NCBI GenBank assembly: GCA_021201135.1
Contig: JAJQGT010000011.1
Location: 62,001 to 126,000, forward strand
DNA from: Oscillospiraceae bacterium
GTDB taxonomy: Bacteria > Bacillota > Clostridia > Oscillospirales > Ruminococcaceae
Length of the DNA stretch: 64,000 bases
Direction: 5' to 3'
The notes under the pieces were generated by a model that saw only the letters and a list, made by a program, of their open reading frames with translations, did no database searches and had not been told where the DNA came from. The position numbers were made by a program, and so were the translations under genes. Of this stretch, positions 14,622-51,633 are shown piece after piece (the first letter of the stretch is position 1; the number at the start of each line of letters is the position of its first letter).

Positions 14622-14726
14622 ACAGTAAGCGGGATGCGAAAACCGAACCGCAGGGTCAAACCGTTTCGTCCGCGGGACAACTCCCCGTTCCCGTGGCACT
14701 ATAACGCTCGGTTTTCTACTCTTTTG
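14622..14726 (-). ncRNA. Tetrahydrofolate (THF) riboswitch
   Basis: Read on the minus strand the region shows the THF aptamer landmarks in order: AGAGTAGA, GCGTTA then GTGCC, GGGGAGTTG, CGGACGAAAC, and the closing GCATCCCGCTT. The family senses reduced folates and sits upstream of folate uptake and synthesis genes; here it precedes folT, a classic target. Confidence 0.85.
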
Positions 14727-33311: not shown

Positions 33312-33947
33312 TTAGTCTTTCAGAAGCTTGCAGTTTGAAGCCATGTCTGTGGCTCGGAACAGGTATGAGCCGGAAACCAGGACATTCGCTCCCGCTTCTC
33401 TTACGAGGTGAGCCGTCTTGTCGGAGATGCCGCCATCAACCTCAATATCCAAGTCAGAAGAATATTCCCGAAGAGCCTTTATCTTGTCAAGGGTTTCATA
33501 GATGAAGCCCTGACCGCCGAACCCAGGCTCGACTGTCATTATAAGAGCCATGTCCATAAGCCCCACTAACGGGTACAGAAGGCTCACATCGGTTTTCGGC
33601 TTGACGGAAACGCCAGCCTTGAGTCCGAGAGAATGAATTTTATCTATAATCCCGACAGGATTCGCCGTGGCTTCGAGATGAAATGTGATTCCGTCAGCTC
33701 CCGCCTTGGCGAACGGCTCGATATAGGCGTTCGGGTCGCTTATCATAAGATGAACGTCGAACGGGAGTCCGGAATATTTCCTGATTGATTTAAGGACCGG
33801 CACGCCGTAGCTGATATTCGGGACGAAGTGACCGTCCATAACGTCGAAATGTATCATATCGCATCCGGATTCTTCGGCTCGCAGGAGCTCGTCCGAAAGG
33901 TGACCGAAATCCGCCGAAAGAATTGATGCTGAAACTAAAGTCTTCAT
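33312..33947 (-). CDS. rpe: Ribulose-phosphate 3-epimerase
   Basis: 211 residues from ATG 33947 (GGGAGG 8 bases upstream). SASILSADFGHL, the metal-binding MIHFDVMDGHFVPNISYG, DVHLMISDPNAYI and VEPGFGGQGFI, and C-terminal EVDGGISDKTAH. Interconverts ribulose-5-P and xylulose-5-P in the pentose phosphate pathway. First gene of a transcript that continues into the Rnf-like trio and the DUF4015 gene; no terminator is visible between. Confidence 0.94.
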   Translation of the reverse strand: MKTLVSASILSADFGHLSDELLRAEESGCDMIHFDVMDGHFVPNISYGVPVLKSIRKYSGLPFDVHLMISDPNAYIEPFAKAGADGITFHLEATANPVGIIDKIHSLGLKAGVSVKPKTDVSLLYPLVGLMDMALIMTVEPGFGGQGFIYETLDKIKALREYSSDLDIEVDGGISDKTAHLVREAGANVLVSGSYLFRATDMASNCKLLKD

Positions 33948-33984
33948 TTCTTTCCTCCCTGATAGTACCTGACTATCCACCATC

Positions 33985-34014
33985 ATTATACAGCAAGTAC
34001 ACGTCGGTTGTCAA
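33985..34014 (-). promoter_or_regulatory. Promoter of rpe and the Rnf-like operon
   Basis: Minus strand: TTGACA, 18 bases, TATAAT. Confidence 0.7.
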
Positions 34015-34112
34015 ACAATCTTTGGTTACAAAACGGTTACTAAAAAGCAAAATATTGCCGACTATTCAGTGCCGATATCGGTCAAATTGACAAAGACAGA
34101 GCTTCAAATCCG

Positions 34113-34208
34113 AAAAGCCGCCATTTCCGGCGGCTGTTATATAATCGGCAGGGATTCATGGCTCTTTTCTCCCCTTCTGAAACTGATTTTGTGAGCCTCC
34201 TGCCGTTA
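34113..34208 (-). ncRNA. Candidate small RNA, about 95 nt
   Basis: On the minus strand a hairpin begins at 34205: CGGCAGG pairs with CCTGCCG (34199-34205 and 34146-34152), with an inner GGCTC/GAGCC helix. It is followed by an intrinsic terminator (AGCCGCC/GGCGGCT, then TTTT, 34113-34135). A weak promoter (TTGTAA, 18 bases, AATAAT at 34215-34244) lies just upstream. No open frame. I do not recognise the family. Confidence 0.4.
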
Positions 34209-34260
34209 GTTTATATTATTCGGAAGTCGTCCGAACGGTTACAAAAACCGGAAACCAAAA

Positions 34261-34282
34261 AGGGAGCGGATAACCGCTCCCT
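34261..34282 (-). terminator. Terminator of the large RNA
   Basis: AGGGAGCGG-TTAT-CCGCTCCCT on the minus strand, then TTTTGG. Confidence 0.85.
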
Positions 34283-34788
34283 CATTATATCAATTTATCA
34301 CCATATGCTGTGAATCTTTCGATTCTGCGTCTTCGACGCTTTGTCGCCTTGGTATCAGGTCTTAACTTAGCTTACTTCATCACGCTTCGGCTATCAAATA
34401 AACCTCACGCATGAACCATGTTATCGTCAAAGCTTGGTATCGTCAGATATTATCACTGATGCGACTACAGCCAATTTAAAGTCTTTGTTGGACTCACCCT
34501 CTCACTGCTAGATTTTGATTTCCTTCTTGTGAAACAGTTTCATGGTGCATCAAATCCTTTCGGGTTTTAAACCTTTTTGATTCGGATTTTCTTGATTTAT
34601 GTTGGGCAAGATATTTTCTTGCTGTTACAGAATCAATTTCATAGCTTGTATCTTTTATCTTGAGAAATTGGTTTCGTACCTAAGAGAACATCTCGTAATG
34701 TGTCAAGTATAAAGATTCTATTACTTTTGAATCTGTGAGTCGGTAAGAGTTATGCTGAGAATGCCGGACTCACCTCTTTCGTTTTATT

Positions 34789-34830
34789 TCAGTCGTAAAT
34801 TCCGCTTCTTGCTACTCTTAATACTTTCAT
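34789..34830 (-). CDS. Possible 13-residue leader peptide inside the large RNA
   Basis: ATG 34830 with AAAGGAG exactly 8 bases upstream (34839-34845); encodes MKVLRVARSGIYD and stops at TGA 34789-34791. Directly after it the RNA forms a stem (GTGAGTCCGG/CCGACTCAC). The spacing suggests real translation, but the ORF is very short. Confidence 0.35.
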   Translation of the reverse strand: MKVLRVARSGIYD

Positions 34831-34963
34831 AACAATCGCTCCTTTGCTTTTTAAGACGCGGTGTTATTGGTTTGTGATTCTGAAGATTTGTTACCTCTTC
34901 ATCGGAACCCTCTCCCTTTTAGATTTCAGTGACTTTTTTTATTTATCTCTCTTCTGTGATTGT

Positions 34964-34992
34964 ATTATAACACACCCGAATTCAAATGTCAA
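34964..34992 (-). promoter_or_regulatory. Promoter of the large RNA
   Basis: Minus strand: TTGACA, 17 bases, TATAAT, with an AT-rich region upstream; full consensus. Confidence 0.8.
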
Positions 34993-35094
34993 TAGGTTTT
35001 TCAAACTTTTTTCAAATTTTTTTGTGGAATTTTTCTGAAGAGCTCGTGTTATCTTTTGAATATAAATTTGAGCGGTTTCTACACAAAAGTACCA

Positions 35095-35123
35095 TTGACA
35101 AACCCGCAAGTTTTCACTATAAT
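35095..35123 (+). promoter_or_regulatory. Promoter of the DUF1292 gene
   Basis: TTGACA, 17 bases, TATAAT; divergent from the large RNA promoter about 100 bases away. Confidence 0.8.
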
Positions 35124-35157
35124 AGAATCAAACCTATTTACAAAGGAGATTACCACC

Positions 35158-35520
35158 ATGGATGAAAACGAATATATGCCCGAAATCTATACCCTTGAGG
35201 ACGAAGAGGGCAATGTCGGCAACTATGAGCTTATAGACATTTACGACGAAGGCGACAACACCTATTATGCACTCGCTCCCTACTATGAGAATCCCGAGGA
35301 TCTCGTGAACGACAACGGCGAGTTCATCATTCTAAAAGTCGAGGACACCGGCGACGAGATTACTCTTGTTTCCATCGAAAGCGAAGAAGAGTATGACAGG
35401 CTGGGACAGATCTTCATCGACAGATTCGACAACTGGGACGATGAGTGTGAGTGCGACTGCGAAGATGACGGCTGCGATTGCGACGACGAGGATTGCTGCT
35501 GCCACCATCACGAAGAGTAA
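35158..35520 (+). CDS. DUF1292 protein with Cys/His-rich tail
   Basis: 120 residues from ATG 35158 (AAAGGAG upstream). The body (YTLEDEEGNVGNYELIDIY, GEFIILKVEDTGDEITLVSI, EEEYDRLGQIFIDRF) is a typical acidic DUF1292 domain, usually found near yrzL/ruvX-type genes in Firmicutes and of unknown function. The last ~25 residues are a tail of Cys, Asp and His (ECECDCEDDGCDCDDEDCCC, then HHH), which should bind metal and is not a usual part of the family. Confidence 0.85.
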   Translation: MDENEYMPEIYTLEDEEGNVGNYELIDIYDEGDNTYYALAPYYENPEDLVNDNGEFIILKVEDTGDEITLVSIESEEEYDRLGQIFIDRFDNWDDECECDCEDDGCDCDDEDCCCHHHEE

Positions 35521-35576
35521 AAACTTCGCATAGAATAGCTCAGGCGAGTTATACTAACCTTAGAATCCATTCTGCC

Positions 35577-35604
35577 TTGCTCGATTAAGCATGGTTTTTA
35601 TAAT
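35577..35604 (+). promoter_or_regulatory. Promoter of the 6S-like RNA
   Basis: TTGCTC, 16 bases, TATAAT. Confidence 0.6.
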
Positions 35605-35610
35605 CCAACA

Positions 35611-35835
35611 CATATATTTAGGGAATCTCGCTCCGGGCGCGGGGATGCAGACCTCCCAAAGTACGCACGGTTGATGCCCCCGCACGACCCTGTTCAAGTA
35701 CGGAGGACGAAGGGAGCACGAAACGTTCGGGCTGATACCCACCTGCTTCGTGCGGGTTTTATACGTCATGTGGCGGCAAGGCGGAAGCCCCCAAAAATTT
35801 AACGGCTGATACTTAAATAGTACCAGCCGTTTTTT
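35611..35835 (+). ncRNA. ssrS: Structured RNA, possibly 6S RNA (ssrS)
   Basis: A ~225-nt transcript between a good promoter and a terminator, with no open frame. The ends can close (ATTTAGGG 35616-35623 with CCCCCAAAAAT 35787-35797), and internal helices include GCGGGG/CCCCGC (35639-35644, 35678-35683) and GCACGAA/TTCGTGC (35716-35722, 35747-35753). The segment GATACCCACCT in the 3' half resembles the 3' side of Firmicute 6S RNAs as I remember them. An alternative long helix, CCCGCACGA/TCGTGCGGG, competes with these. Size and single-copy setting fit 6S; the identification is not certain. Confidence 0.45.
35801..35835 (+). terminator. Terminator of the 6S-like RNA
   Basis: AACGGCTG/CAGCCGTT extended by TAC/GTA, then TTTTTT; may also end the XRE gene on the other strand. 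Confidence 0.75.
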
Positions 35836-51556: not shown

Positions 51557-51633
51557 CTGGGTGTAGCTCAGCTTGGTAGAGCGCTACCTTGGGGTGGTAG
51601 AGGCCGTGGGTTCAAGTCCCGTCACTCAGACCA
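51557..51633 (+). tRNA. tRNA-Pro (anticodon GGG)
   Basis: Complete cloverleaf: acceptor CTGGGTG/CACTCAG with one G-T pair, D arm AGCTCAGCTTGGTAGAGC, anticodon stem CTACC/GGTAG with loop TTGGGGT, T arm GTGGGTTCAAGTCCCGT, and an encoded CCA end. Confidence 0.93.

Follow-up and report, generated by a model that had tools for sequence, protein, structure and literature searches.

The 64-kb stretch of DNA that we analysed (the window) probably contains a real RNA gene of about 700 nt, but this RNA is improbable as a non-coding one. Judging from its sequence, the best reading of it is a polycistronic transcript, structured in part, that carries tiny open reading frames (mini-ORFs). We consider it very likely that the element is a mini-ORF array RNA, with its recurrent promoter, tandem initiation motifs that have a consensus of their own, its own terminator, and no long ORF. 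Furthermore, the start, frame, and stop of the mini-ORFs are kept in the genus, and the array has a conserved place beside a DUF1292 gene and 6S RNA. As to what it does, we tentatively propose that this array RNA engages and briefly holds initiating ribosomes (a probability of roughly 0.45 for identity and mechanism together).

A transcription unit without a long ORF

A first-pass annotation had proposed a non-coding RNA gene here, framed by a consensus promoter and a GC-rich terminator on the minus strand, without a supportable gene, and belonging to no class that it could recognize. What the sequence supports is an RNA gene that has a promoter and terminator of its own and falls in no Rfam class. 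The promoter is a perfect one of the sigma-70 type: TTGACA (34992-34987) and TATAAT (34969-34964) give 12 of 12 matches to the consensus on the minus strand, with a 17-nt spacer. A promoter also recurs before the element in the genus and at 76 of 80 loci from named genomes (at most one substitution per hexamer, within the first 500 nt), so the window's promoter is more than chance. The terminator (34283-34260) is strong, with 7 G-C pairs among its 10, and is conserved in all ten aligned sequences (the window and nine relatives), with one G-U in L007. The features of the locus are as follows; an asterisk marks a stop codon.

34964-34992, minus strand: promoter, TTGACA-17-TATAAT with TG before the -10; recurs in relatives
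34255-34957, minus strand: predicted transcript of ~700 nt; start assumed ~7 nt past the -10
34891-34902, minus strand: candidate mini-ORF 1, MKR*, 3 codons; RBS AAAAGGGAGAGGGTTCCG, duplex with the 16S tail -14.2 kcal/mol
34789-34830, minus strand: candidate mini-ORF 2, MKVLRVARSGIYD*, type A, basic; RBS -10.6 kcal/mol
34750-34773, minus strand: candidate mini-ORF 3, MSPAFSA*, type B, GTG start; first GGTGAGTCC copy
34735-34773, minus strand: possible hairpin of GTGAGTC (34773-34767) and GACTCAC (34741-34735), spanning the mini-ORF 3 start
34508-34543, minus strand: candidate mini-ORF 4, MKLFHKKEIKI*, type A; RBS -15.4 kcal/mol
34465-34497, minus strand: candidate mini-ORF 5, MSPTKTLNWL*, type B, GTG start; second GGTGAGTCC copy
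34372-34380, minus strand: possible two-codon ORF, MK*; no RBS call at -6 kcal/mol
34285-34293, minus strand: possible two-codon ORF, TTG ATA TAA; RBS -8.8 kcal/mol
34260-34283, minus strand: intrinsic terminator, GAGGGAGCGGTT-ATCCGCTCCCTT, then T-rich; 10 pairs, 7 G-C
35158-35520, plus strand: DUF1292-like gene, divergent neighbour; used to locate syntenic loci
35566-35791, plus strand: 6S RNA behind the DUF1292-like gene; 45.7 bits (gathering 46.4)

No minus-strand ORF of 40 or more amino acids lies wholly within 34255-34957, and one 56-aa minus-strand ORF (34939-35109) overlaps the element's first 19 nt. So the lack of a supportable gene holds for ORFs of the usual size only: the RNA carries at least five candidate mini-ORFs (MKR*, MKVLRVARSGIYD*, MSPAFSA*, MKLFHKKEIKI*, and MSPTKTLNWL*), and conserved ones are among them. 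The divergent neighbour is what we take to be a DUF1292-like gene. The gene behind the element is, from its protein sequence, presumably rpe; a perfect promoter belongs to this gene itself (34014-33985), which makes it unlikely that the stretch serves as an rpe leader.

At the gathering score, the only Rfam matches in the whole window are a THF riboswitch (14625-14725, minus strand) and a tRNA (51557-51630, plus strand), both outside the element. The 6S RNA scored under the gathering threshold and was therefore missed in that search. With E-values of up to 5, no match across 33900-35300 was credible; the best was Termite-leu (26.8 of 51 bits), over the terminator. As the first-pass annotation had judged from the missing marks, nothing in the element matches tmRNA, RNase P RNA, SRP RNA, or a T-box, but its suggestion of an OLE, ROOL, or raiA-type RNA finds no match either, nor does GOLLD, even at these permissive E-values. 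The covariance model for 6S RNA (RF00013) does not match within the element; 6S is a separate neighbour. Rfam 15 holds no family matching the element, and no gathering-level match fell inside an array in sets of 17, 13, and 10 related loci. (Besides 6S, the matches to other families in the 10-locus set were sub-threshold only.)

Conserved mini-ORFs in the genus

A DNA search matched 30 of the 31 genomes of the genus. We count the element in 29, the window's own included, because the match in G017 (L030) is 20 nt at another gene without the motif. The core motif lies ~200-640 nt behind the promoter in these 29 loci, and our alignment (A2) includes 25 of the 29 core sequences. Each conserved block consists of an initiation region with a very short ORF behind it. 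The repeated GGTGAGTCC reported in the first-pass annotation is indeed there in two copies, running downward from 34774 and from 34498, but it argues against a non-coding RNA, as it comprises the initiation region and the first codons (GTG AGT CC) of conserved mini-ORFs. We also considered GGTGAGTCC as an RBS only, without an ORF, and dropped this idea: its GTG frame is open, with a kept stop.

The first copy is a GTG AGT CCN start that encodes MSPA in 28 of the 29 core sequences (MIPA in L028), and the type-B peptides that follow from it in the genus include MSPAFSA*, MSPAYS*, MSPAYN*, MSPAIYA*, MSPAFCA*, and MSPAIA*. From the second copy, the window has MSPTKTLNWL*, whereas L025 and L016, by reading, have MSPTKTLV*, MSPKKSLA*, and MSPKYTLV*. 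The second ORF varies among the 29 core sequences (MKLARSWI*, MKVLRVARSGIYD*, MKVLAKARNGTCx*, MKLARSGTGSEKSK*, MRAARSGIC*, MKGPRSGTYK*, and similar) around a core, AR[SN][GW], that is found in 28 of the 29 loci; L026 has PRSG. Counterparts of mini-ORF 1 in relatives are MKR*, MKRHxxx*, or similar (MKN*, MYR*). The TAG of mini-ORF 4 is absent from five of the ten aligned sequences, where the stop comes two codons later at TGA. At the possible MK* site, ATGAAGTAA is identical in all ten, and the stop of TTG ATA TAA is TAG in L008 and L010.

Two of the three mini-ORFs that we tested show codon-level purifying selection in the genus. Among 13 copies of MKLARSWI* (6 distinct), there are 8 synonymous changes, all at third positions, and 0 nonsynonymous ones, versus 4.7 synonymous and 16.3 nonsynonymous sites; its stop is at a fixed place but is TGA 8 times and TAA 5 times. 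Among 12 copies of NKHKIL* (8 distinct), 9 changes are synonymous and 2 are nonsynonymous. The MSPA start (29 copies, 8 distinct) has 5 synonymous and 8 nonsynonymous changes, with no significant synonymous excess. The binomial p values (6e-6, 8e-6, and 0.15, respectively) are only a guide, as the compared sequences are related. Also, L018 has an in-frame 9-nt length change within MNVISENKHKIL. Since two of the three change almost only synonymously, the mini-ORFs of the genus are probably translated.

The same place in other genera

At the matching place, the element was also found in further genera of the family and at a single locus from another family. The common place is divergent from DUF1292, with 6S RNA just behind DUF1292. 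Scanning an alignment of the DUF1292-like neighbour against a named genome collection, we kept 80 loci of at least 419 relatives, including Ruminococcus sp. YE71, Ruminococcus sp. Marseille-P6503, Clostridium methylpentosum, Massilioclostridium coli, and Merdimmobilis hominis. (This set overlaps with that of the genus search by about a dozen contigs.) A promoter was found at 76 of the 80 and a terminator-like site at 62 of these 76; the four loci left out are L119, which has no upstream DNA, and L115, L116, and L120, which have no promoter match. The predicted transcripts of the relatives are ~0.4-2.6 kb long, with tandem mini-ORFs of 1-26 codons. At the gathering score, 6S RNA lies behind DUF1292 in 8 of 17 short loci and 10 of 13 named loci, and also in L171, from another family (f24). 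It looks as if the element has been kept in gut Clostridia adjoining the 6S RNA gene.

A sequence-only model of the core (R1) matched 39 of 396 family genomes at E 0.01, where about four are expected by chance. On reading, L041 (tandem units of ~200 nt with several mini-ORFs each), L043, L053, and L054 have arrays in other genera, and the weak hits L044 and L058 look like chance. Another model (R2) describes a pair of type-A and type-B ORFs. It was built from 24 sequences, none of them on a genus-search contig (alignment A6 holds 24 of 30 segments). R2 finds mini-ORF 5 (34469-34501, E 8.9e-4) as its only hit in the window's genome, which connects the element of the window with arrays in other genera, independently of the window itself. 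It also matches genus members G004 and G008 and misses G018, G022, and G025. R2 matches 11 of 394 genomes across the order. Across the class, it matches 14 of 391 at E 0.003, where about one would be expected if the rough E-values hold. We read four R2 loci outside the order: L165, L166, and L168 look real, and L167 resembles a normal RBS.

Other places have arrays too: in L162 one precedes a gene that we take to be mraZ-like, and L181 (family f17) has three tandem units. The L162 array, from another family of the order, spans ~675 to 900 and has its own terminator, and the mraZ-like gene begins at ~1085. Right behind the three units of L181 there is a sub-threshold match to the PyrG leader (1587-1659; 43.5 of 65 bits).

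Initiation motifs and the build of the arrays

The initiation motif of the mini-ORFs in relatives is ..GG.GTGAKTCC.ATG. Within at most 3.2 kb divergent from DUF1292, the 80 named loci contain 160 sense and 0 antisense copies of AAAGGNGTGAGTCC (with up to 2 substitutions); the control stretch behind DUF1292 contains 2 and 0 on its two strands. There is at least one sense copy in 63 of the 80 loci and at least two in 39, and no control has two. Three of the 17 loci without a copy were read (L072, L092, and L102), and all have arrays of variant motifs.

We also counted RBS-plus-start calls in 60 of the 76 transcripts (64.3 kb; 14 without a terminator and 2 whose terminator was too far away were left out). 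There are 9.5 calls per kb on the sense strand, 1.1 on the antisense strand, and 5.0 +- 0.27 in 10 shuffled sets. For ORFs of up to 15 codons the values are 7.4, 0.47, and 3.07 +- 0.16, and the commonest length is two codons. With a stricter cut-off, the 76 loci have 311 strong-RBS mini-ORFs versus 105.5 expected from shuffles, and 35 two-codon ORFs versus 9.4; these are not independent events, because the loci are related. Shuffling preserves A/G richness, so the two- to threefold excess stands over a high background. The count is above the shuffle mean in 70 of 76 loci and above all 30 shuffles in 34; six loci are not above the mean (L073, L074, L083, L092, L098, and L118) and 42 are not above all 30. 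On reading, L092 does have an array, whose variant motif escaped the energy cut-off.

The motif differs from a strong RBS in general: C at positions -3 and -2 has frequencies of 0.60 and 0.57 in 465 mini-ORF starts, versus 0.17 and 0.15 at 520 ATG codons of long frames, which were matched for RBS score and are not all true starts. The 16S tail is visible in one of the 31 genus assemblies, not the window's own, and is canonical there (GGATCACCTCCTTTCT). Genome-wide, the motif shows no excess in the window's genome (14+18 versus 17+17 for the control, one mismatch allowed), so we are dealing with a single locus rather than a general style of RBS. Across the order, the exact motif occurs in 34 of 295 genomes and a reversed control pattern in more (~50). 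Therefore a single motif is not diagnostic, and we judged arrays by reading the loci.

Outside the genus, the first ORF often has 16-26 codons and an acidic start (MDVSEIKQSSPRLAEV*, MDAVEIGQSIPRLGRI*), and ORFs of one to three codons occur elsewhere in the arrays (M*, ME*, MA*, MY*, MKR*). Later come the A-B pairs, in which a basic type-A ORF ends in N[ILF]*, mostly NI*, in varying codons (33 frames; 39 rows, of which 6 are nested starts). In 26 of the 33 frames, the type-B GTG AGT CC lies within the next 42 nt, usually 9-17 nt past the stop. Across genera, LNI* is spelled in varying codons and with all three stops. In the 39 rows, a last codon of ATC goes with TGA and ATT goes with TAA or TAG, with one exception (L135); this coupling may point to an RNA-level signal.

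Proposed role

We tentatively propose that the array may serve as a ribosome decoy; what its sequence shows in this respect is complementarity to the 16S tail. The element would be transcribed and its mini-ORFs translated, with ribosomes loading at each motif by extended pairing with the 16S tail. They would make 1 to ~25 codons, terminate, and recycle or pass to the next unit. Because a type-B start lies ~9-17 nt past the type-A stop, a ribosome ending on the type-A ORF would sit on or next to the RBS of type B. The RNA would thereby buffer or read translation capacity, a role comparable to that of the neighbouring 6S RNA for RNA polymerase, and nascent peptides would set how long each ribosome stays. 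Ribosome engagement explains why some ORFs have just one or two codons, and also the extended RBS and strong promoter. But if the RNA did nothing more than capture ribosomes, the peptides should drift freely, and yet two ORFs are constrained in the genus. Ribosome engagement alone leaves this residue-level constraint unaccounted for, and the constraint favours effects of the nascent chain or of free peptides. So we hold the proposal with less than even confidence and give some weight to two other explanations.

First, the tiny peptides might themselves be the products of an operon, acting free in the cell or outside it, with the RNA simply their mRNA. The products would be the basic type A, the MSP peptides of type B, and the 16- to 26-mers with acidic starts. 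This possibility, which we consider rather unlikely, would fit the purely synonymous change in MKLARSWI, the nearly pure one in NKHKIL, the upkeep of LNI* across genera in varying codons, and the in-frame length change in L018. However, many of the ORFs, such as M* or MKR*, are too short, at one to three codons, for a specific product. Also, the sets of peptides differ strongly between genera, and no fixed gene lies behind the array in the loci that we read: the window and L020 have rpe there, L012, L015, and L018 have another gene, and L162 has the mraZ-like gene.

RNA structure

Second, the RNA might be a structured scaffold or regulator with a coat of ribosomes, in which the mini-ORFs keep the transcript occupied, stable, and correctly folded. 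We think this improbable, although there are signs of structure. The folding energy of the element's strand is -167 kcal/mol, versus -139.9 +- 5.8 in 20 shuffles (z -4.7). RNAalifold predicts 150 pairs from ten sequences (the window and nine relatives), of which 5 have changes on both sides and most are invariant, so the structure is compatible with, and weakly tested by, the alignment. The hairpin over the start of mini-ORF 3 is likewise unchanged in all ten and therefore shows no covariation. The first-pass annotation's hairpin with a GNRA loop (GAATC-GAAA-GATTC, 34325-34312) is present in the window; the hairpin is predicted in all ten sequences, but only four, the window included, have the GNRA loop. 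In 24 loci from several families, GAGTCC of an initiation motif could form a helix with a GGCTC further downstream; in one of these loci (L156), the helix is probably a terminator. Two pairs flanking this helix covary modestly (21 and 17 of 24 versus 18.2 and 13.0; p ~0.03 each). By reading, this GGCTC occurs in all three reading frames (1 in L042 and L153, 2 in L113 and L146, 3 in L085).

Some mRNAs are reportedly protected by ribosomes that bind a strong SD, and a six-codon mini-ORF is said to shield a leader from RNase E (PMC8708949). On the other hand, a coat of ribosomes needs no residue-level constraint, and by reading, the spacers differ between genera while the RBS and ORFs recur. We do not claim a tiny hairpin, GG.x..y.CC, just before the AUG: x and y are complementary in 144 of 300 unambiguous cases (of 377), versus 116 expected, and the signal is driven by the repeated units of a few loci.

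Downstream genes

A leader or attenuator, whose mini-ORFs would be leader peptides controlling the downstream gene of a shared transcript, is very improbable. Short ORFs and strong terminators are parts of attenuators, and the L162 array ends shortly before the mraZ-like gene. However, the downstream genes vary among the relatives read, none being a fixed regulated gene, and rpe in the window has its own promoter. Furthermore, the number of ORFs is long and variable, unlike any leader known to us. That an A/G-rich intergenic stretch yields SD-like runs and short ORFs by chance is scarcely credible: shuffles do retain a fair number of calls (105.5 in 76 loci), but the strand asymmetry of 160 to 0, codon-level conservation, recurrent promoter, synteny, and recovery by a model built without genus contigs all argue against it.

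Comparison with known RNAs

Our literature search, with most subscription journals and preprints outside its scope, found no description of a free-standing bacterial transcript of tandem mini-ORFs, and the element looks like an undescribed kind of bacterial transcript. Single minigenes or mini-ORFs that precede a gene are already known: two- and six-codon minigenes have been described in leaders of bacterial genes, among them axe-txe mg2 and B. subtilis ycbK (PMC8708949). They resemble the mini-ORFs of the array in being tiny, with a good SD and an AUG, one or a few codons, and a stop, and in acting via ribosomes rather than a product, as we propose here; but as described there, they come as one or two, in cis before a real gene, whereas the array has many in series. 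Unlike leader minigenes, the array has its own transcript, promoter, terminator, and initiation motif, and it is conserved across genera. By sequence, it does have the start, few codons, stop, and (predicted) SD of a minigene, but its own terminator and changing downstream genes do not fit action in cis on a downstream gene. The lambda bar minigenes are a further example of minigenes.

Leader and ribosome-arrest peptides are short basic ORFs with kept C-terminal residues and an adjacent second RBS. The array is similar in all these respects, but it has no fixed downstream gene, and the second RBS starts another mini-ORF. 6S RNA (RF00013), which adjoins the array in most tested loci, may share the logic of a decoy; it differs in that it binds RNA polymerase and carries no ORFs, and it is a separate gene here. 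OLE, ROOL, GOLLD, and raiA RNAs are similar in size, in their presence in Clostridia, and in having their own transcription units, but they do not match the window's element in Rfam, and to our knowledge a series of mini-ORFs is not a feature of any of them. In Drosophila, the eukaryotic polycistronic mRNA tarsal-less/polished rice also encodes several tiny related peptides in one formerly "non-coding" RNA. Its peptides have at least 11 amino acids and a known role as products, and it shares no common descent with the array.

Gene finders usually drop ORFs of under ~30 codons, and searches for non-coding RNAs tend to drop sequence that looks coding, so a gene built like the array falls between both. 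If the mini-ORFs are translated, then a conserved transcript commits ribosomes to making products of 1-25 residues, and the cell might gain a buffer for ribosomes, a sensor of tRNA or release factors, or a set of micropeptides. More speculatively, the arrays could be a widespread class of Clostridia RNA, with tandem mini-ORFs beside 6S RNA, and the equivalent of 6S on the side of translation, capturing or gauging ribosomes by means of programmed translation cycles that are one to ~25 codons long. This class would span many genera of one family and further families of the order, and possibly extend further in the class. The arrays also offer a natural set of minigenes for studying initiation, termination, and peptidyl-tRNA drop-off.

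Possible variants

In L146, L147, and L149-L153, a promoter-like sequence and a first ORF of 16-18 codons (MVTEETSCWFAGLAAAL*, MVSEIEQEFRTARLAGAH*) head apparent long RNAs; reading further in L147, L149, and L153 turned up few other clear mini-ORFs. L166 and L168 (family f79) have a single, terminal mini-ORF on a long RNA-like stretch (~450 nt) that has no Rfam match at E 0.05. At ~1500 on the reverse complement of these two loci, GAAAGGGGTGAGTCC and a 12-codon ORF (MSPKEMTSEIES*, MSPKGMISEVKS*) lie directly before the terminator.
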